This document shows positions 6,753-19,145 of a DNA stretch of 64,000 nt, one piece after another. The notes beneath the pieces are model-generated. The model did not search any database. It worked only from the letters and a program-made list of their open reading frames with translations, and was not told where the DNA came from. The DNA comes from Streptomyces sp. NBC_01591 (GTDB lineage: Bacteria; Actinomycetota; Actinomycetes; Streptomycetales; Streptomycetaceae), in assembly GCF_035918155.1 (NCBI RefSeq), contig NZ_CP109327.1, positions 1,612,001 to 1,676,000 of the forward strand. The letters run 5' to 3'. Position numbers and translations under genes: made by a program. The stretch's first letter is position 1; the number at the start of each line of letters is the position of its first letter.

Positions 6753-9700
6753 TTACTCGTCGGCGGGAACCTGAGCGGTGCCGGGGGGTGTCGTGGCGCG
6801 CTTGAACATGCGGGTGGCGGTGATCTCGCCGTGCACCGTCTCGCCGTTCGGATCCTGCTGCGGCAGCCCGGGACGCAGGTGCTCCTCCACGCTGATGTAT
6901 TTCAGCCCGGCACGCAGATCCGCGTCGTTGCGCAACCGGATGACCAACGGAAATTCGGCGAGCGCCGTGGTGTCGAACAATCCGGTCGTGTAGAGCAGTT
7001 GCACGCCCAGGGCGTCCGACACCGCGCGCTGGAGCTCCAGCAGATAGGTGGCGTTGGCGCGGCCGATGGGGTTGTCCAGGAAGAGTGTGCCCGCGTGCCG
7101 GTGCTGGTGCCGGTCACGGCCCCGGTCGTTGCTGCGCAGCGCGGCCATCGTGCAGTACAGGGCGATGGCCGCGGTGAGCAGCTGACCGCCGGAGAAGACG
7201 TCGCCCATCTGTCCGACCGGGACGCGCTCGGCGCGGAGCACCGCGTCCGGTTTGAGGATCTCCACGGCGATGCCCCTGGGCTCCAGCGCCGCCTGCACAC
7301 CGCGCAGCAGCAGGGACATTCCGTCCCTGCGCATATCGGAGTTCTTCTTCAGTGCGGCACGGGTCGCCTCGTCGACGACCTCGCCGAGACGCTCCGTGAG
7401 GGTCGCCTGGTCGGGTTCCTCGAAGCGGATCCGGAGGAACTCCTGGCCGGACCACTCCCCCAGCCCTTCGGGGAGCCGGGAGAGCCGCTGGGCGGACCTG
7501 AGGGTGGTGAGCGCGGACTCCACGAGGCCGCGGAGCCGGTCGACGATGGAGTCACGGTTGCGCTCCAGCTGGGCCAGCTCGTCGGTGAGTACACGGAGCC
7601 GGGGCGCGAAGGCGGCGGCCCATTTCTCGGCGTGCTCGGGCAGCGCCGCGGCCGGCAGCTCGCGGATCTGCTGACGGGCCGGGGTTCGGACCTGTTCGTA
7701 ACGCGTGGAGTTGGCGTGCCGTACGAGGACGTCGCTCGCTTCCCGTACGGCGCTCTCGGCGGCGGACAGGTCGGCGGCGCAGCCGCGCAGTGAGCGGCGG
7801 GCCTCGGCGGCGGACTGCCGGGCCTCTTCGAGACTGCCCGGGTACGGCTCGGGGGCCTCGGTGTCGTCGTCCGCGCCGTGGTCCCTGAGCAGGTCGCGCA
7901 GGAGTGCCGCCGTCTCGTCGAAGCCGCCTGCCGAGTCCTCGGCGGTGCGGTGGGCGTGCAGCAGCTCGGCGTGGGCGGCGCGGGTGGTGTCCAGGGTCGC
8001 GGTGGCGGCGGCCAGTTCGGCCGTGGCGGTGCGCAGGAGGGTCTGGGCCCGGTCGGCGTCGGCGGGGACCAGCTCGTCGGGGAGTTCGGTGTGGTGGGAC
8101 TCGCCGTCGGCCGGGGCCAGGCGCTCGGCCTCGCCGCGGAGCCGGCCCAGCTGCTCGCTCGCCGTGGAGGCCCTGGTCTCCAGGAGCTGGACCAGGGACT
8201 CGGCGCGGGCGGCGGCCGCCTGCCGGGAGGGGCCGTCCGCGCCGTCGGTGCCTTCGAGGAGCTGGGCGGCGCGGGTGCGGACCTTGTTGGTGAGCCGGTC
8301 CAGTTCGGCGAGGGCGGCGCTCTCGTCGCTCTCCGCGCGGGCCTGTTCGGCGCGCAGATCGGCGCCGACGCCGACCTTCTCGTACAGCTGGGACGCGGCC
8401 CGGTACGCCTCGCGCAGCGAGGGGAGTGCGGGGCGCGGGTTGTCGTCCGCCGGCTCCGGGAGGTGCTCGGGGGCGCCTGCGATCTCCGCTCGTTCGGCGC
8501 GCAGGGCGCGGGCGGTACGGCGGGCGTCGTCGGCGGCGCGCTGGGCGGCCCTGCGGTCCTCGTCGGCGGCGCGGGCCCGCTCCAGGCAGACGGTGGCACG
8601 GGCTTCGGACTCGGCTGCCTCGTCGACGAGTTCGCGGAGTTTCGCCTGCCAGCCCGCGCGTTCGCGGAGCCGGTACGCGAGGCCCGCCAGGGCGTCGGCG
8701 GCGCGGCGGGCACGCTGGGCGGCCTCCTGGCGCTCCTCGCGGACGCGGGCGGTGTCCGCGGCGGCCTCGTCCGCCTCGGCGCGCACCGTACGGGCCTCGG
8801 CGAGCTCGGCCTCGGCGGTCTGAGCGGCCGTGCGGGCGGTGCGGGCGGCCTCGGCGAGTTCGGCGAGCATTCCGGGCGGGCAGTCGGCCCGCCAGGAGCC
8901 GATGCGGGCGGCGAGGGAACGGTCGGCGGTGAGGCGGGCCGCGAGGGTACGGATGTCCTCGTCACGGGCCGCGGCCCTGGTCCTGAGGGCCTGCCGCTCC
9001 TCGTCGGCCGCGTGTTCGTCGTGCATCGCCGGGTTCGGCGGGACGAGGAACACCCCTTCCGCGCTCGCCGCGGAGCCCGTGCCGGCGGCCGGGACGGGGG
9101 CGAGCAGCGCGGCGGCGGTGCCGACTGCGACCGCGGAGCGCGGCAGCAGAGCGGCGCCGCTGAGGACGTCGCGGGCGCGGGCGTGCGAGTCGGGGTCGGT
9201 GATGACGACGCCGTCGACGAGTTCGGGACGGGCGGCGAGGACGGCCGCGTGGTCGGCGGGGTCGACGGCCTGGGCGAGGTATCGCCAGCCGGGCAGGGCG
9301 GGGATGCCGTGCTCGCCGAGGTACTCGACGGTGGCGAGGACATCCGGCCCGGGCGGCAGCAGTCCACCGTCGCCGAGCGCGCCGAGGATGCGGGAGTCGT
9401 CGGCGGCCGCGGTGCGCAGTTCGAAGAGGCGGCGCTCGGCGGAGGCGATGGACTGGTCGAGCAGCTCCCGCAGTTCGTCGGCGCTGCGGTCGAGTTCCTG
9501 GGCGGTGAGCGGCTGTTCGGGGGCGGTGGCCTGTTCGGCCGTGACGGTGTGCGTGCCGTGGGACGCCCGGGTGGGCTGCCCTGCCTCGTCCGCCCGGCCG
9601 GTCGCCTCCGCGGCGGCAGGCCGTCGGTCGGTGGTGGCCGGGCCGGTGTCGGTCCCGGTGCCGTCCGCATCGTGCGGGGCGTCCGGGTCCATGTCCGGGT

Positions 9701-11594
9701 CCGTTCCGGCCGCGCCCCGGCGGGGGCGGGGCACGCCGGGGCCGTGGGTGGCGGGCAGGCCCAGCAGGTCGGCCAGGCGGTGGTCGGCGGCGATCGACTC
9801 GGCGGCCCCGAGCTCGGCCTCGTACGACTGTTCCGCGGCCTGTGCGGCGTCGGCGGCGCGCGCCGCAGCGAGGTCGGCGCGGCTCTCGGCGGCCGCGGCT
9901 TCCCTGGCCACGTCGGCCGCGGAGCGGGCGGCCTCCCTGGCGGTGTCCCACGCGGCGACGGCGGACTGCTCGGCGTCGCTGGCGGCGAGGGCGGCACGCG
10001 CCGGGTCGGCGTCCGGCGCGGTGTCGTCGAGCCAGCCGGCCCGTACCGCCTGTGCGGTCTCCTGCTCGACCTCGGCGAGGCGCTGGCGCAGATGTCCGGC
10101 CTCGCTGCGGGCACGCTGGGCCTCGGTGGCGGCGGTGGTGGCGTCCCGGTGGGCGGTCTCGCCCGCGGTCTGGAGGGTGTCGGAGCGTTCCTCCTCCTCG
10201 TTGGCGAGGGTCTCGCCGGCCTCGGCGGCGGTGTGCAGTGCCTGCACGAGCTCGGCGGCTGCCTCGGCGCGGGCGGCGAGCGCGGGCGCGGCGTCCCGCT
10301 CGGCCTCGCGGATGGCGACGGCCACCCGTGCGGAGCGGTCGGCGGCGGCGCGGTGGCGCAGTACGGCCTCGGCGGCCTGCCAGGCGGAGTGCAGGGTGCG
10401 GGCGTCGCCCAGTTCGCGGCGTTGGGCGGCGGCGCCCTTCTCCGCTGCGGTCAGGGCCAAGGAGGCGTGCCGGTAGGCCAGTTCGGCGGCGATCAGGGCG
10501 CTGCGGCTGCGGGCCTGTTCGGCTGTGGTGACGGTGTGCGCGGCGCCCGTCACCTGCTGGGCCAGCTCGGCGGTCCGGCCTCGTTCCTGCCTGGCGCGGG
10601 CGGAGAGCCTGCGGGCGAGCGTACGGGTGCGGCGCTCTGCGCCCGCGTGGACGTCCCGGGTACGGGAACGGGTGTCGGCGGCCTCCACGATCCGGCCGAG
10701 CAGGTCGACCGAGCCTGCGGTGAAGTCGCGCTCGGCGGTCAGTTCGGCGCGGCGGCCGAGCTTGTTGCCGAAGCCGCTCACCAGGTCGGCGAGGCCGTCG
10801 GTGTCGCGGGTGTCGGTGACGGCGCGGAGGAGCAGGTCGGTGAAGTCGGAGTCCTTCTTGACCGCGAAGAGCCCTGCCGCCTCGCCCTCGTCGGCGTTCA
10901 TCTCGCGCTGGTAGCGGAAGAGTTCGGGGTCGAGTCCGAGGTCTCCGAGGTGCTCGTTCCAGCGGTCGTGGATCTCTTCCCAGTGCACATCGAGGTGCTG
11001 GTAGAACTTGCCCGCCTCGGTCAGGGCGTCACGGAAGCCCTTCATCGTGCGCCGTCTGCCCTGCGCGCCGGAAGCGCCTTCGACGGGGCGGCGCACGGAG
11101 GTGGCCTCGGCGACCGGCAGGGAGTCCAGGCTGAGGCCGGGTCCGGGCCGGAAGGAGTACCAGGCCTCGGCGAATTTCCGCGGGTCGTTGGAGACCTGTC
11201 GGCCACGCCATTCGCTGACCTTGCCGACGACCACGCATTCGCCGGTGAGGGTGTGCTGCCACTCCAGGGCGACATGCCCGCAGTCGTCGGCGAGCAGGAA
11301 CTTGCGCAGCACGCCGGAGCTGGCGCCGCCGAGGGTGTTGCGGTGGCCGGGCAGCATCACCGAGAAGATCAGCTTCAGCAGCACCGACTTACCGCCGCCG
11401 TTCTCCAGGAAGAGCACGCCGGCGGGGGCGGGGCGGCGGGGCGGGCCGACCGGCTCCTCCTCGAAGAACTCCGCCTGGGCCGGTGCGGGGTCGGGCACGG
11501 GCTCGCCCACTCCGCGCAGGTCGAGCACGGTGTCGGCGTAGCGTGCGCCGGCAGGCCCGATGGAGTAGAGGCGGACCCGGGACAGCTCGTACAT
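6753..11594 (-). CDS. Giant SMC/MukB-like coiled-coil ATPase
   Basis: A 1613-residue SMC-like ATPase, last gene of a MukFEB/MksBEF-style operon. The N-terminal head has a Walker A, LENGGGKSVLLKL, with K69. Long Ala/Arg/Glu-rich coiled coils fill about residues 280-610 and 860-1250. They are separated by a disordered insertion (about 618-678) and a globular hinge-like region (about 735-860, with DSRILGALGDGGLLPPG). The C-terminal head has the ABC signature FSGGQ (about 1466) and a Walker B, TLFLDNPIGRAN, with D1507. The residue after D1507 is N1508, where SMC and ABC ATPases normally have the catalytic Glu. The coding strand follows the KITE-like gene by 60 bases. A DNA-loop-extruding or DNA-topology-sensing role is inferred from architecture only. 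Confidence 0.85.
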   Translation of the reverse strand: MYELSRVRLYSIGPAGARYADTVLDLRGVGEPVPDPAPAQAEFFEEEPVGPPRRPAPAGVLFLENGGGKSVLLKLIFSVMLPGHRNTLGGASSGVLRKFLLADDCGHVALEWQHTLTGECVVVGKVSEWRGRQVSNDPRKFAEAWYSFRPGPGLSLDSLPVAEATSVRRPVEGASGAQGRRRTMKGFRDALTEAGKFYQHLDVHWEEIHDRWNEHLGDLGLDPELFRYQREMNADEGEAAGLFAVKKDSDFTDLLLRAVTDTRDTDGLADLVSGFGNKLGRRAELTAERDFTAGSVDLLGRIVEAADTRSRTRDVHAGAERRTRTLARRLSARARQERGRTAELAQQVTGAAHTVTTAEQARSRSALIAAELAYRHASLALTAAEKGAAAQRRELGDARTLHSAWQAAEAVLRHRAAADRSARVAVAIREAERDAAPALAARAEAAAELVQALHTAAEAGETLANEEEERSDTLQTAGETAHRDATTAATEAQRARSEAGHLRQRLAEVEQETAQAVRAGWLDDTAPDADPARAALAASDAEQSAVAAWDTAREAARSAADVAREAAAAESRADLAAARAADAAQAAEQSYEAELGAAESIAADHRLADLLGLPATHGPGVPRPRRGAAGTDPDMDPDAPHDADGTGTDTGPATTDRRPAAAEATGRADEAGQPTRASHGTHTVTAEQATAPEQPLTAQELDRSADELRELLDQSIASAERRLFELRTAAADDSRILGALGDGGLLPPGPDVLATVEYLGEHGIPALPGWRYLAQAVDPADHAAVLAARPELVDGVVITDPDSHARARDVLSGAALLPRSAVAVGTAAALLAPVPAAGTGSAASAEGVFLVPPNPAMHDEHAADEERQALRTRAAARDEDIRTLAARLTADRSLAARIGSWRADCPPGMLAELAEAARTARTAAQTAEAELAEARTVRAEADEAAADTARVREERQEAAQRARRAADALAGLAYRLRERAGWQAKLRELVDEAAESEARATVCLERARAADEDRRAAQRAADDARRTARALRAERAEIAGAPEHLPEPADDNPRPALPSLREAYRAASQLYEKVGVGADLRAEQARAESDESAALAELDRLTNKVRTRAAQLLEGTDGADGPSRQAAAARAESLVQLLETRASTASEQLGRLRGEAERLAPADGESHHTELPDELVPADADRAQTLLRTATAELAAATATLDTTRAAHAELLHAHRTAEDSAGGFDETAALLRDLLRDHGADDDTEAPEPYPGSLEEARQSAAEARRSLRGCAADLSAAESAVREASDVLVRHANSTRYEQVRTPARQQIRELPAAALPEHAEKWAAAFAPRLRVLTDELAQLERNRDSIVDRLRGLVESALTTLRSAQRLSRLPEGLGEWSGQEFLRIRFEEPDQATLTERLGEVVDEATRAALKKNSDMRRDGMSLLLRGVQAALEPRGIAVEILKPDAVLRAERVPVGQMGDVFSGGQLLTAAIALYCTMAALRSNDRGRDRHQHRHAGTLFLDNPIGRANATYLLELQRAVSDALGVQLLYTTGLFDTTALAEFPLVIRLRNDADLRAGLKYISVEEHLRPGLPQQDPNGETVHGEITATRMFKRATTPPGTAQVPADE

Positions 11595-11654
11595 GGCGGC
11601 GGACTCTCGTCGTTCAGGGAGCGGGAGGGAGACGGCGGTGGTGGGGCGGGCCGG

Positions 11655-12584
11655 TCAGGCGTGGAAGGGCAGACCTGCGTCGGCGGCCAGCTCCAGGTCG
11701 TCGGGGTCGGGCGGCGGCAGCAGCGTCGCCGTGCCGTCGGTGACCGGGACGACGCCGAGTTCCAGCAGTTCGGCCATGGCGGCGGTGCCGGCCATGTCGC
11801 GGACCTGGAGCTGGTAGCGGGCGGTGGTGCGGAAGGCGCCGCCGGCGTCGTCCCCGGTGCGCTGGAGGAAGCCGGAGTCGGTGAGGAAGGCGACGGCCTT
11901 GCCGACAATGCCGGTGGTGGAGCCGGCCAGGCGCCGGGCGTCCTTCGTGGCGCCGGTGGAGCTGCGCCGGGCGTAGATCCGCCAGGCCACTTCGAGTCCG
12001 GGGGCGTCGGTGGCCGGGTCGGTGTTGTCTCCGTGCTCCTCGGCGCGCTCCTCCAGGCGGTGGCACGCCTGGCGTACGAACGAGTCGACGCCGTTGACCG
12101 TGATCCGGCCGATGTACGCGTCGTCGGCGAGGTCCTCGGGGCGGGGGAAGGCCATCGCGGCGACGGCGAGGTGTGCGAGCCCGTGCAGGAAGCGGTCGGC
12201 GGAGTCGGACGAGGCGCGGCGGGCGTAGTCGCCCATGCGGACGGCGAAGACCGAGTCCTCACCGGCGGTCACGGCCATGCCCGCACGGGTGGACACCTCC
12301 AGGACGACCAGGCCGAGTCCGGTCGCCACGGCGTCGGCGAGCCGGGCGAAGGCGGGCTCCTCCCGGTAGCGGCGGAGCAGTTCGGCGTATTCGGCGTCGC
12401 GTGCGGGCAGCAGCTTGGGCTGCAGGCCGAAGGCGACGAGCCGGGCGGCGTCGGCCGCGTCGGCCGGGGTGACGGCCGGAGCGGCGGCGGGGCCCACCGG
12501 GTCGGCGGGCCCACTGCCCTCGGTCGGGTACGCGGCGGTCGGCTCGCCCCACGCGTCGGCGTGCTGTGCGCGGTGGTCGCTCAC
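11655..12584 (-). CDS. KITE/MukE-MksE-like accessory subunit of the SMC-like complex
   Basis: A 309-residue protein placed between the kleisin-like and SMC-like genes, the position MukE/MksE/JetB proteins occupy. The first 40 residues are low-complexity. The rest reads as globular alpha/beta with winged-helix-like segments, for example VGKAVAFLTDSGFLQRTG followed by FRTTARYQLQVRDM, and the end AAMAELLELGVVPVTDG. The start is the GTG at 12584, whose GTGA overlaps the stop of the 48-codon ORF upstream, with AAGGAG about ten bases before it. Assignment rests on gene order and predicted fold rather than recognised family motifs. Confidence 0.65.
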   Translation of the reverse strand: MSDHRAQHADAWGEPTAAYPTEGSGPADPVGPAAAPAVTPADAADAARLVAFGLQPKLLPARDAEYAELLRRYREEPAFARLADAVATGLGLVVLEVSTRAGMAVTAGEDSVFAVRMGDYARRASSDSADRFLHGLAHLAVAAMAFPRPEDLADDAYIGRITVNGVDSFVRQACHRLEERAEEHGDNTDPATDAPGLEVAWRIYARRSSTGATKDARRLAGSTTGIVGKAVAFLTDSGFLQRTGDDAGGAFRTTARYQLQVRDMAGTAAMAELLELGVVPVTDGTATLLPPPDPDDLELAADAGLPFHA

Positions 12585-12727
12585 GACTGTCGCTCCTTGC
12601 TGCGGAAACTCTTCGGTACGGGGGTGGACGGCGCCGGCTCTCGCGGGGTGCGTCCCGGGCGGCGCGGTCCGGTCCGGGCCCGTGGCGCGGGTGCCGGCCG
12701 CCGTGCCGGGCGCACCGCGCCGGTCAT
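12581..12727 (-). CDS. 48-residue Arg/Pro-rich micro-protein coupled inside the SMC-like operon
   Basis: A small ORF fills the gap between the kleisin-like and KITE-like genes exactly. Its ATG (12727-12725) overlaps the kleisin-like stop as ATGA, and its TGA (12583-12581) overlaps the next start as GTGA. GGAGG lies about five bases before the ATG. The product begins MTGAVRPARRPAPAPRARTG and ends PVPKSFRSKERQS. It is very basic, Pro-rich and probably disordered, with no recognised domain. Coupling at both ends argues that it is translated. It could be a DNA- or SMC-binding peptide, or only a ribosome relay between the two neighbours. Conservation in related operons would decide. Confidence 0.6.
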   Translation of the reverse strand: MTGAVRPARRPAPAPRARTGPRRPGRTPREPAPSTPVPKSFRSKERQS

Positions 12728-14250
12728 GACGCCTCCGTGCGGTCCGCGGCCATTCCGGCCGCGTCCAGCAGGGCGGTGCCCACGATCAGGTCGGCGCCGC
12801 CGAACTCCGGGTCGTCGAGCTGTGTGCCGTCGTCGACGGAGAACAGCAGTCGCTGCTCTCCCTGCCGGTAGGCGGTGCCGACCGGCGGGCTCGCGGCGTG
12901 CACCGCGAGCAGGGCGACCAGGTAGGGCAGTTCGGGATCGCGGCGCCGGGCGTCGGCGAGGAGTCCGGAGAGCCGCCTCGGGGCATCGTGTTCCAGGTCG
13001 AGGAGGTCCATGGCGCTCGCGAGCTGTTCCTCGCTGAACCTGCTGTCGTCGGGGGTGGCGATCAGATCGGGCTCGGGCATCTCGGCGCCCAGGTGTTCCC
13101 GCTCCAGGGGCGGGGTGAGCAGCATGTCGACGAGGTCGCCCACCCGTACCGAGGTGGGGGTGCGCAGTCCGGTGCCGTGGGCGAAGAAGGCGTCGGTGAC
13201 GCGGATCGCCTGCTCGACGGGGAGCGGCAGCAGCGGGGCGACCAGCTGGCCGTACAGGTCGAGGCCGGTGCGGGCCGTGGGGGTGGCGAACGCCTGCCGG
13301 TCCTGTTCGGCGCGGAACAGCGGTCCGGCTTCCAGCAGGCGGGACTGCAGCTGGGTGTGGCGGCGGATGCAGTCCTTGACGATGTCGACGAGCTCGGCGG
13401 CGCGGCGTTTGTGCTCGGGCTCCTCCGCCTCGTCGCGCGCCTTGCGGATGTTGGTGAGGATCGCGTTCTCGTGGCGGTAGCGGTCGGCGACGTGATCCAG
13501 CGCTTCGGCGATCATGTCGGGCACCGCGTTGAGCCAGTCGACGGCGCGGACGTTGCGCCGGGTGGCCTCCAGCGTCTTGCGGAGGGTTTCCGCGTACTGC
13601 ACGGTGCGGTAGCGGGCCTGCTCGGCGGCGAGCTGCGCGTCCGCGAGGCGGCCCCGGCTGATGAGGACCTCCAGCTTCACCTCGGCGGCGATCTGGGCGC
13701 TGGTGACGTCCGTGTCGAGGGCGCCCACCAGGACGTTGACCGCTTCGTCGGTGGCCCGGAGGTAGACGGTGCCGCCGTATCCCGGGACCTCTTCGATCAG
13801 CTTGAAGTCGTAGTCCCGGCGGACGTACACCCCGTCGGGGCCGAAAGTGCCGTACACCGCGCGGAATCCGCGGTCCACGCTGCCGACGTTGATGAGGTTC
13901 TCCAGCACCCAGCGCGCGACCCGTTCGTGCTCGGCCACGGGGCGGCGGGGGGCCTGAGCGGCGACGCGGGGAAGCAGCCTGGCCACTATCTGGTCGTGGT
14001 CGGCACCCGTGTCGAAGTCCATGTTGAGGGTGACGAGGTCGATCGCGGCGAGGGCGACCTCGGCCATCGCGTAGACCGTGTACTCACCGGCCAGATTCGC
14101 CTTGCGGACATCGAGGTCGTGCAGCGGCGCCGTGCAGGCGAGCGCGCGCAGCCGCCGCGAGAGCCCCTCGTCGGCGGCCGGGCCCGGGGCGGGCCGCGGT
14201 CCCGCGCTGAGCTGGGGCGCAGCGTTGTCCGTGTAGGCAGGCGAAGTCAC
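12724..14250 (-). CDS. Kleisin-like / MukF-MksB-like first subunit of the SMC-like complex
   Basis: A 508-residue protein heading the SMC-like operon, in the position of the kleisin in MukFEB/MksBEF/Wadjet loci. It is mostly helical. An N-terminal helical domain includes EHERVARWVLENLINVG. The middle (about 175-330) has long charged helices such as LADAQLAAEQARYRTVQYAETL and a His-rich segment, DHVADRYRHENAIL. A C-terminal domain contains the acidic DDSRFSEEQLASAMDLLD. Motifs of the classical DUF3375 JetA family were not recognised, so kleisin is a structural inference from position, size and helix pattern. The start GTG at 14250 gives VTSPAYTDNAAP. Expression probably begins in the region just upstream, and the 48-codon ORF is coupled to its stop. 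Confidence 0.65.
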   Translation of the reverse strand: MTSPAYTDNAAPQLSAGPRPAPGPAADEGLSRRLRALACTAPLHDLDVRKANLAGEYTVYAMAEVALAAIDLVTLNMDFDTGADHDQIVARLLPRVAAQAPRRPVAEHERVARWVLENLINVGSVDRGFRAVYGTFGPDGVYVRRDYDFKLIEEVPGYGGTVYLRATDEAVNVLVGALDTDVTSAQIAAEVKLEVLISRGRLADAQLAAEQARYRTVQYAETLRKTLEATRRNVRAVDWLNAVPDMIAEALDHVADRYRHENAILTNIRKARDEAEEPEHKRRAAELVDIVKDCIRRHTQLQSRLLEAGPLFRAEQDRQAFATPTARTGLDLYGQLVAPLLPLPVEQAIRVTDAFFAHGTGLRTPTSVRVGDLVDMLLTPPLEREHLGAEMPEPDLIATPDDSRFSEEQLASAMDLLDLEHDAPRRLSGLLADARRRDPELPYLVALLAVHAASPPVGTAYRQGEQRLLFSVDDGTQLDDPEFGGADLIVGTALLDAAGMAADRTEAS

Positions 14251-14354
14251 GCTGCACAGATTAGGTCCTCACACTGACAACGGTCGAAACGGCGCAGAAG
14301 CGACCCCTTGCCGGGGGCCGGTCGACGGCAGCCTCACAGCCGTTCGCCGGTAGG

Positions 14355-17300
14355 TCACGTACGGTCGTCGCGGTCCGGTTCCGGGGTTCCGTAGCCCCCG
14401 CCGCCCGGTGTGCGGAGCACGAATACGTCTCCCGGCTCCAGCTCGGCCGTGTCGCAGCCGCGCAGTGGTGTGGCCGCCCGGTCGTCCGGGTGCTCGATGA
14501 GCTGGTCGCCCGGTGCGCCGGGTCCGCCGCCCGCCATGCCGTACGGCCTGACCCGGCGGTGGCCGGAGAGCAGTGCCACGGTGACGGGTTCCAGGAAGCG
14601 GATCCGCCGCTCCACGCCGCAGCCGCCGTGCCAGCGCCCGCTGCCGCCGCTGCCCTCGCGTACCCGGAAGCTCTCCAGCAGGACTGGGTAGCGCCATTCG
14701 AGGACCTCGGGGTCGGTGAGGCGGGAGTTGGTCATATGGGTCTGCACGGCGTCGGCGCCGTCGAAGCCGTCGCCGGCGCCTGAGCCGCTCGCCACGGTCT
14801 CGTAGTACTGGACCCGTTCGTTGCCGAAGGTGAGGTTGTTCATGGTGCCCGAGCCCTCGGCCTGGATGCCGAGGGCCGCGTACAGGGCGCCGGTGACGGC
14901 CTGGGACGTCTCCACGTTTCCCGCGACGGTGGCCGCCGGGTGGACGGGGGCCAGCATGGAGCCTTCCGGGATCCGGACCTCCAGGGGCTTGAGGCAGCCG
15001 CTGTTGAGGGGGATGTCGTCGGTGACCAGGGTCCGGAAGACGTACAGCACAGCCGCCATGACCACGGACTTCGGCGCGTTGAAGTTGCCCGGTTGCTGGG
15101 GTGAGGTGCCGGTGAAGTCGACGACCGCGGTGCGGGCGGCCCGGTCCACGGTGAGGGCCACCTCGATGACCGCGCCGTTGTCGGTCTCGTAGCGGTAGGC
15201 ACCGTCGTGGAGTTCGGCGATGATCCGGCGGACGGACTCCTCGGCGTTGTCCTGCACGTGCCCCATGTACGCGGCGACGACGTCGGGCCCGAACTGCTCG
15301 ACCATGCGGCGCAGTTCGGCGATGCCCTTTTCGTTGGCGGCGATCTGGGCGCGCAGGTCGGCGAGGTTGGCCTCCGGGTCGCGGGAGGGGTACCGGGCGG
15401 TGGTGAGCAGCTCGCGCGTCTCGTCCTCGCGGAGCCTGCCGTCGCGTACCAGCAGCCAGTTGTCGAACAGCACCCCTTCCTCGTGGATGGTGCGGCTGAA
15501 GGCGGGCATGGAGCCGGGGGTGATGCCGCCGATCTCGGCGTGGTGTCCGCGTGAGGCCACGAGGAAGCGCAGCTCCGGCCGCTCGCCGTCGGTCTCGTCG
15601 AACACCGGCGTCACCACGGTGACGTCGGGCAGGTGGGTCCCCCCGTGGTACGGATCGTTGATGGCGTACGCATCGCCGGGACGCATCGCGCCGCCGTTGC
15701 GCCGCAGCACCTCCTTGATGGACTCCCCCATCGAGCCGAGGTGGACGGGAATGTGCGGGGCGTTGGCGATCAGATTGCCGTCGGCGTCGAAGAGCGCGCA
15801 GGAGAAGTCGAGCCGCTCCTTGATGTTGACGGAGTGGGCCGTGTTCTCCAGACGCACTCCCATCTGCTCGGCGATCGACATGAAGAGGTTGTTGAAGACC
15901 TCCAGCATGACGGGGTCGACCCGGGTGCCGACGGCCGTGCGGTCCGGGCGCGGGCGGACCCTGGTGAGCAGCAGATGGCCGGTGCCGTCGAGAGCGGCCT
16001 GCCAGCCCGGGTCGACGACGGTGGTGGCATCCGCCTCGGCGATCACGGCGGGGCCGGTCACGGTGTCCGCGGGACGGAGTTCCTCGCGGCGGTGGAGCGG
16101 GGTGTCCTGCCATCGGCCGTCGGCGAACATCCGCACGGTGTCGCGCGGTCGGGGCTTCGTGCCCGCGCGGGGCGTGGAGTCGGCTGGGGGTGGCTCGTGC
16201 CGACCGGCCGTTCCGGTCGCCTCGACCGAGACCGCCTCGACGACCAGGGGTTTGTCCATGGTGAACGCGTAGCGCGCCCGGTGCTCGGCGGTGAACGCCG
16301 CGGCCATGGCGGGTGCGGTGTCCAGGCCGACGGGCAGGCTCGAATCCGTACCGGCATAGCGGAGCAGCACGCGGGCACGGGTGCTGATCGCGCTGTCGGG
16401 GACGGCGTCGGCGCGCAGTTCGGCGCGGGTCCGGGCGGCCAGTTCGTCGCAGAGTTCGCCCACCGCGGTCCGGGTCGCCTCGTTCAGTTGCGCCTCCACC
16501 GACTGTTCGCGCATCGCGGTGGCGTCGGCGAGGCCGATGCCGTACGCGGACAGCACGCCCGCCAGCGGCGGTACGAGGACCGTGTCGATGCCCAGGGAGT
16601 CGGCGACGGCGCAGACGTGCTGACCACCGGCGCCGCCGAAGCCGGTCAGGGCGTAGCGGGTGATGTCGTGCCCGCGCTGCACGGAGATCTTCTTGACCGC
16701 GTTCGCCATGTTGAGCACGGCGATCTCCAGGAACCCGGCGGCGGTCTCAGCGGCCGTGCGCCGGGTTCCGGTGGCGCGCGCCACGTCCTCGGCGAGCGCG
16801 TCGAAGCGTTCGCGGACCAGGTCCGCGTCGAGCGGGAGGTCGCCGTCAGGTCCGAAGACGGCCGGGAAGTGCGCGGGCTGGATCCGGCCCAGCATCACGT
16901 TGGCGTCGGTGACGGTCAGTGGGCCGCCGCGGCGGTAGCAGGCCGGGCCGGGGATCGCGCCCGCCGAGTCGGGGCCGACCCGGTAGCGCCGGCCGTCGAA
17001 GTGCAGGACGGAGCCGCCGCCGGCCGCGACGGTGTGGATGCTCATCATCGGCGCGCGCATCCTCACACCGGCGACCTGGGTGCCGAGTTCGCGCTCGAAC
17101 TCGCCCGCGTAGTGGGACACATCGGTGGACGTTCCGCCCATGTCGAAGCCGATGACCCGGCCGAATCCGGCCTGTTCGGAGGTGCGGGCCATGCCGACCA
17201 CGCCCCCGGCGGGGCCGGAGAGCACCGCGTCCTTGCCCCGGAAGTGGGAGGCTTCACGCAGCCCGCCGTTGGACTGCATGAACATCAGCCGGATGCCGTC

Positions 17301-17990
17301 GAGTTCAGCGGCGACCTCCTCGACGTACCGGCGCAGGATCGGCGAGAGGTAGGCGTCGACGACGGTGGTGTCGCCGCGCGGTACGAGCTTGATCAGGGGG
17401 CTCACCTCGTGCGAGCAGCTGACCTGTGTGAAGCCCGCCTCGCGGGCCGCGTCGGCCACGGCGCTCTCGTGGCCGGGGTGGCGGTAGCCGTGCATCAGGA
17501 CGACGGCCGCGCTGCGCAGTCCGTCGGCGCGGGCGGCCCTCAGCCGCTCGGTGACCGCGTCCCGGTCCAGTGGTGTGACGACCCGGCCGCGGGCGTCGAT
17601 CCGCTCGGGGACCTCGATCACCCGCTCGTAGACGGCCTCGGGCAGCAGGATGCGGCGGTCGAAGAGCCGCGGCCGGTTCTGGTACGCGATGCGCAGGGCG
17701 TCCCGGAAGCCTTCCGTGATGACCAGGACGGTCGGCTCGCCGCGCCGCTCCAGCAGGGCGTTGGTGGCGACCGTCGTGCCGATCCGCACGGCGGCGACCC
17801 GGTCGGCGGGGACCGGGTCGGTGGGGCCGAGGCCGAGCAGCGCGCGGATTCCGGCCACGGCTGCGTCTCGGTAGCGGTCCGGGTCGTGGGAGAGCAGCTT
17901 GCGGGTGACCAGGTGGCCGCCGGGATCCCGGCCCACGACATCGGTGAACGTCCCGCCTCGGTCGATCCAGAACTCCCAGCGTCCGGTCAT
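14355..17990 (-). CDS. Fused hydantoinase/5-oxoprolinase (HyuA-HyuB)
   Basis: A 1211-residue single-chain ATP-dependent hydantoinase/5-oxoprolinase, the size of eukaryotic OPLAH-type fusions. The HyuA half (about 1-680) opens with [20 protein letters not shown], the nucleotide-binding motif, and carries [13 protein letters not shown] near 283 and [20 protein letters not shown]. The HyuB half starts near 693 with [21 protein letters not shown] and has [18 protein letters not shown] and [20 protein letters not shown]. 5-oxoproline cleavage to glutamate is the likeliest reaction; a related hydantoin cannot be excluded. The frame stays open upstream through a glycosyltransferase scar to 19145, but family similarity begins at the ATG at 17990. 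GGAGGG abuts that ATG, an unusually close Shine-Dalgarno. Confidence 0.88.
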
Positions 17991-18190
17991 CCCTCCATAC
18001 TGCCCCGTGGTGCGGACAACGACCCGGACGGCGCGACCCACTGCGCTTGTACGGTGGCCAGCGCGCTCCGCAGGGCCTCCTCGGTCCGTCGGTCGAGGCG
18101 TGCGCCGGTGCCGCACGCCTGGTGCCGCAGCTCCGCTCCGGCCAGGTACAGCAGTTGGGGCAGCAGATCGGTGCTTCGGCGGGCCGGCCA
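17987..18190 (-). pseudogene. C-terminal remnant of an unidentified gene at the deletion scar
   Basis: In a frame different from the flanking glycosyltransferase fragments, codons from about 18190 to the TGA at 17989-17987 read like real coding sequence. They contain [20 protein letters not shown], then [15 protein letters not shown], and the stop overlaps the oxoprolinase ATG as ATGA, normal operon spacing. No start and no N-terminal part exist. The family is not recognised. I read it as the surviving tail of a gene whose body was lost with the glycosyltransferase sequences. Confidence 0.55.
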
Positions 18191-18272
18191 GCGCGGTGCG
18201 CAGCCCTCCGGACGACGGGGTGATGAAGTTCGCCAGCCGGACGATGACCATCCGCTGTCCGCGGCCGTTCAT
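18191..18272 (-). pseudogene. N-terminal fragment of a second glycosyltransferase
   Basis: The ATG at 18272 begins [20 protein letters not shown], continuing SGGLRTAL. This is the opening beta-strand and glycine-rich loop typical of a GT-B glycosyltransferase N-terminus. About 27 codons survive before the sequence turns into unrelated Pro/Arg-rich translation at about 18190. It is fused in frame to the upstream glycosyltransferase half. No glycosyltransferase of normal length remains here, so both genes appear broken. Confidence 0.6.
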
Positions 18273-18281
18273 GCCGCCACC

Positions 18282-19145
18282 GCAGAACGTCTCGTACGGT
18301 CCTGTGTGCACGAACATGTCCAGCGAGGCGAAGACCCGGGCGAGGTCGTCGCCGGTCCTGCGGCCGAGGAAGACCGCGCCGGGCAGGGCGGTCCGCAGCG
18401 CCGGCTCACTGGGGCCGTCCCCGACGACCACGACCCGGACCCCGGGGATCGCGCAGGCCCCGGTGAGGAGTTCGACGTGCTTCTCCGGGGCGAGCCGCCC
18501 GACGTATCCGACGATCCGCTCCCCGCCGGGCGCGAGCCGGCGGCGCAGTGACTCGTCCCGCAGGGCGGGCCGGAACCGTGCGGTGTCGACGCCTCGTGGC
18601 CACAGCCGCACCCGGGGCACGCCGTGATCGGTGAGGTCGCGCAGGGCGGCGGTGGACGGGGCGAGGGTGCGGTCGGCGGCGCTGTGCACAGCGCACATCC
18701 GGCGCCAGGCGGTGTTCTCGCCGGTACCGAGGTACGTGCGCGCGTAGCCGGCCAGATCGGTCTGGTAGACGGCCACGGCCGGCAGCCCGAGTCTGGCGGC
18801 GGCTGCCATGCCCCGTGCGCCGAGCACGAACGGTCCGGCGAGATGGACGAGTTCGGCGCGGTGGGCGGTGAGGGCGGCGGTCAGCCGCCGGCTCGGAAGC
18901 GCGACCCGGACCTGGGGATAGCCGGGCAGCGGGAGGGAGGGGACGCGCACCACGGGGCAGGGGGCGTCGGCTTCGAAGGTGTCGGAGGGGTCCGGACGGG
19001 ACGTGGTCGTCGCGCCGGCCGTGGCCGGGGCGATGACGAGCGGTTCATGGCCGCGGTCGGCGAGATGCCGGGCCGTCTGCAGGGTGCAGTGGGCCACGCC
19101 GTTGACATCGGGCGGGAAGGATTCGGTGACGATGACGACACGCAT
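18282..19145 (-). pseudogene. Truncated GT4-type glycosyltransferase (N-terminal two thirds)
   Basis: The ATG at 19145 opens a standard GT-B glycosyltransferase: [20 protein letters not shown], a nucleotide-binding second half with [17 protein letters not shown], and [14 protein letters not shown]. About 288 residues are intact, up to [12 protein letters not shown]. Family members then continue with Gln-Thr and the EAMASGVPVV motif that binds the sugar nucleotide. Here the sequence jumps to GGGMNGRGQ, the start of another glycosyltransferase. The donor-binding E-x7-E region is therefore missing and the product should be inactive. The frame happens to stay open into the oxoprolinase. Confidence 0.75.

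Follow-up and report, generated by a model that had tools for sequence, protein, structure and literature searches.

In a window of 64,000 nucleotides (nt) from Streptomyces sp. NBC_01591 (contig NZ_CP109327.1, positions 1,612,001 to 1,676,000) we examined an operon of three minus-strand genes for an SMC complex of the Wadjet kind. These are jetA, encoding a putative kleisin of 508 amino acids (aa; 12724..14250), jetB, encoding a KITE protein of 309 aa (11655..12584), and jetC, encoding an SMC ATPase of 1613 aa (6753..11594). An earlier note, made from the letters alone, had located reading frames of these lengths correctly and had called the operon coupled, a term that fits only loosely, since the genes do not overlap and are separated by gaps of 139 nt (jetA-jetB) and 60 nt (jetB-jetC). 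The note's view of a MukBEF- or Wadjet-like SMC operon was upheld by PADLOC profiles, with JetA matching JetA3 (PDLC00567; 620.3 bits, E 7.7e-187) and JetC matching JetC3 (PDLC00588; 1406.3 bits). The predicted structure of JetB is closest to JetB and MukE: after re-alignment of 998 Foldseek-ranked chains, every match aligning over at least 165 residues, among the 50 listed, was a KITE or KITE-complex chain. JetC has the Walker A (FLENGGGKS; VLFLENGGGKSVLLKLIFS, 11361..11417, minus strand) and FSGGQ motifs that the note had reported, as well as a Walker B (LFLDNPIG). With JetA3, a KITE JetB and a JetC3 carrying Walker and signature motifs, the operon is, by its sequence, the JetABC part of a known system, type III Wadjet. 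The separate actinobacterial SMC family suggested by the note stands only as a clade of its own within this type, and is not a new family. As the note had remarked, the classical DUF3375 and DUF4194 are absent; no Pfam or NCBIfam family is significant. Relatives of JetA and JetB are mostly annotated as 'hypothetical protein' (best 120 of 1110 and best 120 of 1207, respectively).

The type III Wadjet on a plasmid of Rhodococcus pseudokoreensis R79 (L002) has the same gene order, JetA and JetB proteins 54% and 53.5% identical to those in the window, and in its JetC the same ENGGGKS and FLDNPIG motifs, the whole Walker A segment being nearly alike. It differs in that a jetD gene lies 29 nt after jetC, whereas the Streptomyces operon lacks JetD, is chromosomal and core, and encodes a JetC in which the insert preceding the hinge is longer. 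This low-complexity insert (residues about 618-690; 9525..9743, minus strand) lies in the JetC arm directly before a conserved domain that we name hinge-like by inference (residues about 701-870; 8985..9494, minus strand) and that measures 162-182 aa in all 19 aligned rows. The aligned insert segment is 90 aa long here and 36 and 121 aa in two other core JetCs, against 6-31 aa in 13 JetD-bearing rows and 7-27 aa in three JetD-less rows from outside the Streptomycetaceae. A pattern count of the insert over core loci matched 69, at distances of 61-362, and missed 29, and is not usable.

With MukBEF of E. coli and with MksBEF the operon shares three subunits, the order F-E-B and the lack of a nuclease gene, and MukE is among the best structural matches of the JetB model. 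The profile search that the note had proposed succeeded for JetA3 and JetC3 but gave no significant match of JetA to MukF or of JetB to MukE, and only a weak one of the JetC head to MukB. In hhalign comparisons with partners of one or two rows, JetA and JetB reached probabilities of 0.06-0.21% against MukF/MukE and type I JetA/JetB, and neither matched the two type I pairs significantly; the C-terminal head of JetC matched type I JetC with an E value of 7.8e-5 and a probability of 61%. Of the sequence searches of the PDB with JetA and JetC profiles, one returned a single P450 row (E 1.2) and the other mostly coiled-coil rows, and no relative was found in the viral contigs searched.

The three open reading frames (ORFs) are confirmed by comparative sequence analysis as real genes rather than chance frames in GC-rich DNA, since identity and gene order are kept across Streptomyces loci (best-segment identities of 89-99% for JetA, 75-97% for JetB and 84-97% for JetC) and the ratio of nonsynonymous to synonymous substitution rates (dN/dS) of JetA is low. 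In seven within-Streptomyces comparisons dN/dS was 0.075-0.148 for JetA and 0.169-0.235 for JetC, with higher values for both against other genera; the JetB values are inflated because untrimmed sequence ahead of the start was part of the rows compared. In 87 of 99 core loci a single frame carries the JetC motifs intact. Ten of the remaining 12 are cut at a contig end, one contig ends before jetC, and in one locus (L184) the JetC frame is split, an artefact or a real break.

A JetA match was found in 386 of 392 Streptomyces genomes (378 of the 380 with completeness of at least 90% and contamination of at most 5%); four of these matches, in G081, G121, G320 and G375, are far weaker than the others. 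Across the Streptomycetaceae, 100 of 101 genomes, covering 17 of 17 genera, have a match; in G770 the sole match is a JetD-bearing copy (25%). A class-wide draw gave JetA in 63 of 393 genomes, all in families f1, f16 and f41, with 18 of the 29 f16 genomes positive. In the Streptomyces and class-wide surveys about three first-look candidates per genome were scored, and copy numbers are therefore lower bounds. All 26 core rows form one clade (100/99) in which rows of the same genus fall together, and a tree of JetA, JetB and the JetC heads likewise unites 13 of 13 core rows (100/100). On this evidence JetABC is core to the Streptomycetaceae, vertically inherited and under purifying selection. 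A separate JetD-less JetABC clade, without the damage-type motif described below, occurs in family f16 (L142-L161 except L160; L157 is JetD-bearing). A third JetD-less JetABC, L160 (G709, family f41), is followed after 213 nt by a glyceraldehyde-3-phosphate dehydrogenase gene.

The absence of a nuclease subunit, noticed in the earlier note, held under closer scrutiny. TBLASTN with three JetD proteins gave no significant match in the window and none in the 1.08 kb after jetC, which rules out a JetD pseudogene there. As PF09983 misses some type III JetDs, a profile of the type III protein, seeded from three plasmid JetDs, is the better test; neither has a match in the genome of NBC_01591, the type III profile having been scored on 13 first-look candidates per genome out of about 100, and an unlinked type III JetD was rejected on these grounds. 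Of 135 loci searched as six-frame fragments, the JetD profile matched 15. It matched none of 80 Streptomyces core loci (JetC is whole in 69), nor any of the 18 core loci that represent other genera of the Streptomycetaceae. In families f16 and f41 it matched one of 20 loci (L157), seven of the 20 being cut by contig ends, while among 12 second copies from Streptomycetaceae and f16 it matched ten, the other two being cut.

The note had also proposed a search for an unlinked JetD across Streptomyces. Of 151 genomes, with the same share of candidates scored, 17 matched the type III JetD profile and 134 had no match at E 0.001. Thirteen of the matches were strong, and all 13 genomes concerned hold an extra JetA (G090 and G151 have three JetA and two JetD each), so JetD tracks the extra copies and not the core operon. 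The other four were weak and partial, and three of these coincide with DUF2399 matches. The genome of NBC_01591 carries a second, type II Wadjet-like locus (G000:C1:4087185-4095623, at 4.09 Mb; L001, L195), in which a DUF2397 and a DUF2399 domain lie about 7 kb from each other. A type II JetD as fixed partner was rejected, DUF2399 being present in only 41 of 101 genomes. Because relatives carry JetD, the gene was probably lost, and by parsimony on the trees we infer loss rather than gain of JetD. An approximately unbiased (AU) test did not reject a single JetD-less clade of core and f16 loci (p 0.203), so one loss or two would both fit the two large JetD-less clades; the placement of L160 among JetD-bearing rows suggests a further loss.

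The DNA upstream of jetA is poorly conserved, with the exception of a footprint of about 50 nt ahead of the GTG, which is highly conserved across Streptomyces (14251..14300, minus strand; 32 aligned loci, 12 of them shown). Within it lies TTGTCAGTG-TGAGGACC-TAATCT (14258..14280, minus strand), which is TTGTCAGTG-N8-TAATCT followed by 7 nt and the GTG, and is the sole strict match in the window. We take the pattern TGTCRG-N10-TAnnnT to be the RecA-NDp (PafBC) type of DNA-damage promoter, a consensus anchored on the recA gene of the same genome; Gamulin et al. in 2004 reportedly gave it as tTGTCRGtg-N8-TAnnnT. The relaxed motif precedes jetA in all 80 Streptomyces loci, at a distance of 7 nt from the aligned start in 78 of them and of 6 nt in two, with only two other matches in the 3.15 Mb of strand sequence of those loci; the stricter TTGTCRG-(T)G form occurs in 26 of the 80. 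In other Streptomycetaceae genera 12 of 18 loci have the relaxed motif, followed in each case by a GTG or ATG at a distance of 7-8 nt; three more have TGTCC variants. The motif with a GTG 7 nt after it is also seen in three JetD-bearing copies of the Streptomycetaceae (L169, L172 and L173) and in the contig-cut L162, while in JetD-bearing L165 and L166 it lies upstream of jetA without a GTG at that distance.

The motif occurs at 99 sites in the genome of NBC_01591 (four are copies of a single sequence), whereas its reversed control gives 12. Of the 90 sites read for a following ORF (ATG or GTG start, at least 100 aa), 36 have a start at offset 6 or 7, compared with a mean of 1.5 for each other offset. 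These 36 include jetA together with recA, uvrB, dnaX, xseA, recD2, rarA and an AlkZ-like gene. We examined 20 downstream genes chosen by eye, a non-random sample of mostly repair-looking genes, and found repair, replication, helicase or nucleotide-handling domains in 17 (among them RecA, UvrB, two UvrD helicases, DnaX, exonuclease VII, RecD2, an exonuclease/endonuclease family protein, RarA/MgsA, an AlkZ-like protein and ThyX); the other three have SWIM, DUF4253 and ankyrin domains. Nine of the first ten chosen genes start at offset 7 and uvrB at 6; in the second ten, the three without repair domains start at offset 7 and the others at 2 to 50. Many further sites precede genes with no obvious repair role. 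The motif-marked genes (L203-L292), many apparently leaderless and several of them for DNA repair, may constitute a damage regulon independent of LexA, many members of which are unknown.

According to the available parts of the literature, PafBC activates RecA-NDp promoters in mycobacteria (PMC6789036, PMC8223512) and is triggered by single-stranded DNA (PMC11804915), a RecA-NDp gene of S. coelicolor is UV-induced (PMC5087735), and Streptomyces encode PafBC homologues, an initial motif search having suggested that S. venezuelae does not conserve the motif of M. smegmatis (PMC9380542). The presence of the motif at 80 of 80 loci, the 99 sites against 12 and the offset enrichment argue for a Streptomyces version of the RecA-NDp motif, and our findings suggest a RecA-NDp damage regulon in Streptomyces, a point left open in 2022 in the portion of PMC9380542 available. 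The promoter layout is common to jetA and the genome's own recA; no SMC complex is named as a member of the regulon in the accessible parts of PMC5087735, PMC6789036, PMC9380542 and PMC8223512.

We consider it rather probable that a type III JetABC lost its JetD in an ancestor of the Streptomycetaceae and is now a chromosomal, damage-regulated SMC complex. Since it is core, nuclease-less and preceded by a recA-type promoter, its most likely role, as predicted from these features, would be to handle chromosomal DNA under damage; because of the same promoter, a DNA-damage response is favoured over the plasmid sensing put forward in the earlier note, which had missed the JetD-bearing relatives, the core status and the damage-type promoter. 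After the loss of JetD, JetABC would have become fixed on the chromosome. Damage would yield single-stranded DNA that activates PafBC, RNA polymerase would begin transcription at the jetA GTG and make a leaderless jetABC message, and JetABC dimers would load on chromosomal DNA, where ATP-driven loop extrusion or bridging may hold DNA that is broken or stalled, or compact it, so that it can be repaired in the many-genome hyphae, with no cutting of DNA. A bolder version, to which we give slightly less than even credence, makes the complex a dedicated bacterial counterpart of Smc5/6: loop-extruding, formerly anti-plasmid, nuclease-less, family-wide and run by a LexA-independent damage response. 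The motif in non-core copies suggests that damage control was already present in the ancestor, which weighs against a clean story of new role and new promoter, and makes a retained defence role possible.

Such a role, in which JetABC would sense plasmids or phages and silence or compact them without cutting, as proposed for Smc5/6, or act with an unrelated effector, fits closest relatives that are defence systems and the motif in several JetD-bearing copies, damage control being compatible with invasion sensing. We think it distinctly improbable: no nuclease-like gene adjoins the operon, and a single clade that is found throughout the family and whose neighbours are partly conserved is unlike mobile defence genes. 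Somewhat less improbable, though still unlikely, is a general chromosome-folding condensin like MksBEF or MukBEF with damage induction as one control among several. The core status of JetABC agrees with this, as does MksBEF of P. aeruginosa, a Wadjet-like complex thought to have lost JetD and to act on the chromosome (the review PMC10586767, as far as its available text goes). Against it, the conserved upstream element is a damage-type promoter, and the housekeeping place seems taken, as ScpA of the canonical Smc-ScpAB is encoded in the same genome.

A complete Wadjet with its JetD encoded elsewhere would find a candidate in the type II-like locus at 4.09 Mb and some latitude in the share of candidates scored. 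We regard it as very unlikely given the lack of type III JetD matches in this genome and in 134 of 151 Streptomyces genomes, the patchy occurrence of DUF2399, and the coincidence of strong JetD matches with extra JetA. Least credible of all is a RecN/SbcC-type ATPase with unrelated neighbours, the alternative named by the note itself, or a decaying remnant, for which nothing speaks beyond generic ATPase motifs: against them stand the JetC3 score of 1406 bits, the KITE-like JetB, the kept order of the three genes and a JetA dN/dS of about 0.1 within Streptomyces, and both were rejected.

A survey of Actinobacteria reported Wadjet in 42% of genomes and, in Streptomyces, for the most part towards the ends of the chromosomes (PMC10482375, in its available part). 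'JetD' is absent from its text; the survey probably left the core JetABC out of its count. Neither Wadjet nor JetC appears in the text of a 2026 paper on Streptomyces SMC (PMC13121528), and PMC9122601, in the parts available, holds both PafBC and Wadjet without linking them. Among the titles and abstract beginnings listed, with preprints and most subscription journals outside the search, we found neither a JetD-less Streptomyces Wadjet nor one controlled by PafBC. If the proposed loss of JetD and damage-related role of JetABC are correct, a second Wadjet type would show the passage from immune system to housekeeping SMC complex, which would bear on the open question of the origin of MukBEF and MksBEF, and Streptomyces genetics would gain one more SMC complex, so far overlooked, whose trigger can be tested.

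The neighbours of the core locus are partly conserved: many loci are flanked downstream by a gene for a NIT-HAMP kinase and upstream by a HEAT-like gene. In the window the kinase gene lies on the same strand 1.08 kb beyond jetC, so that the note's statement that no second gene follows on that strand applies to the operon itself and not to what lies beyond. The f16 loci have neighbours common among themselves, in many cases with a TerD gene upstream. Upstream of jetA in the window, a single frame of 1596 aa (14355-19145, minus strand) joins glycosyltransferase and hydantoinase A/B domains; several relatives match just one of the two parts near jetA.

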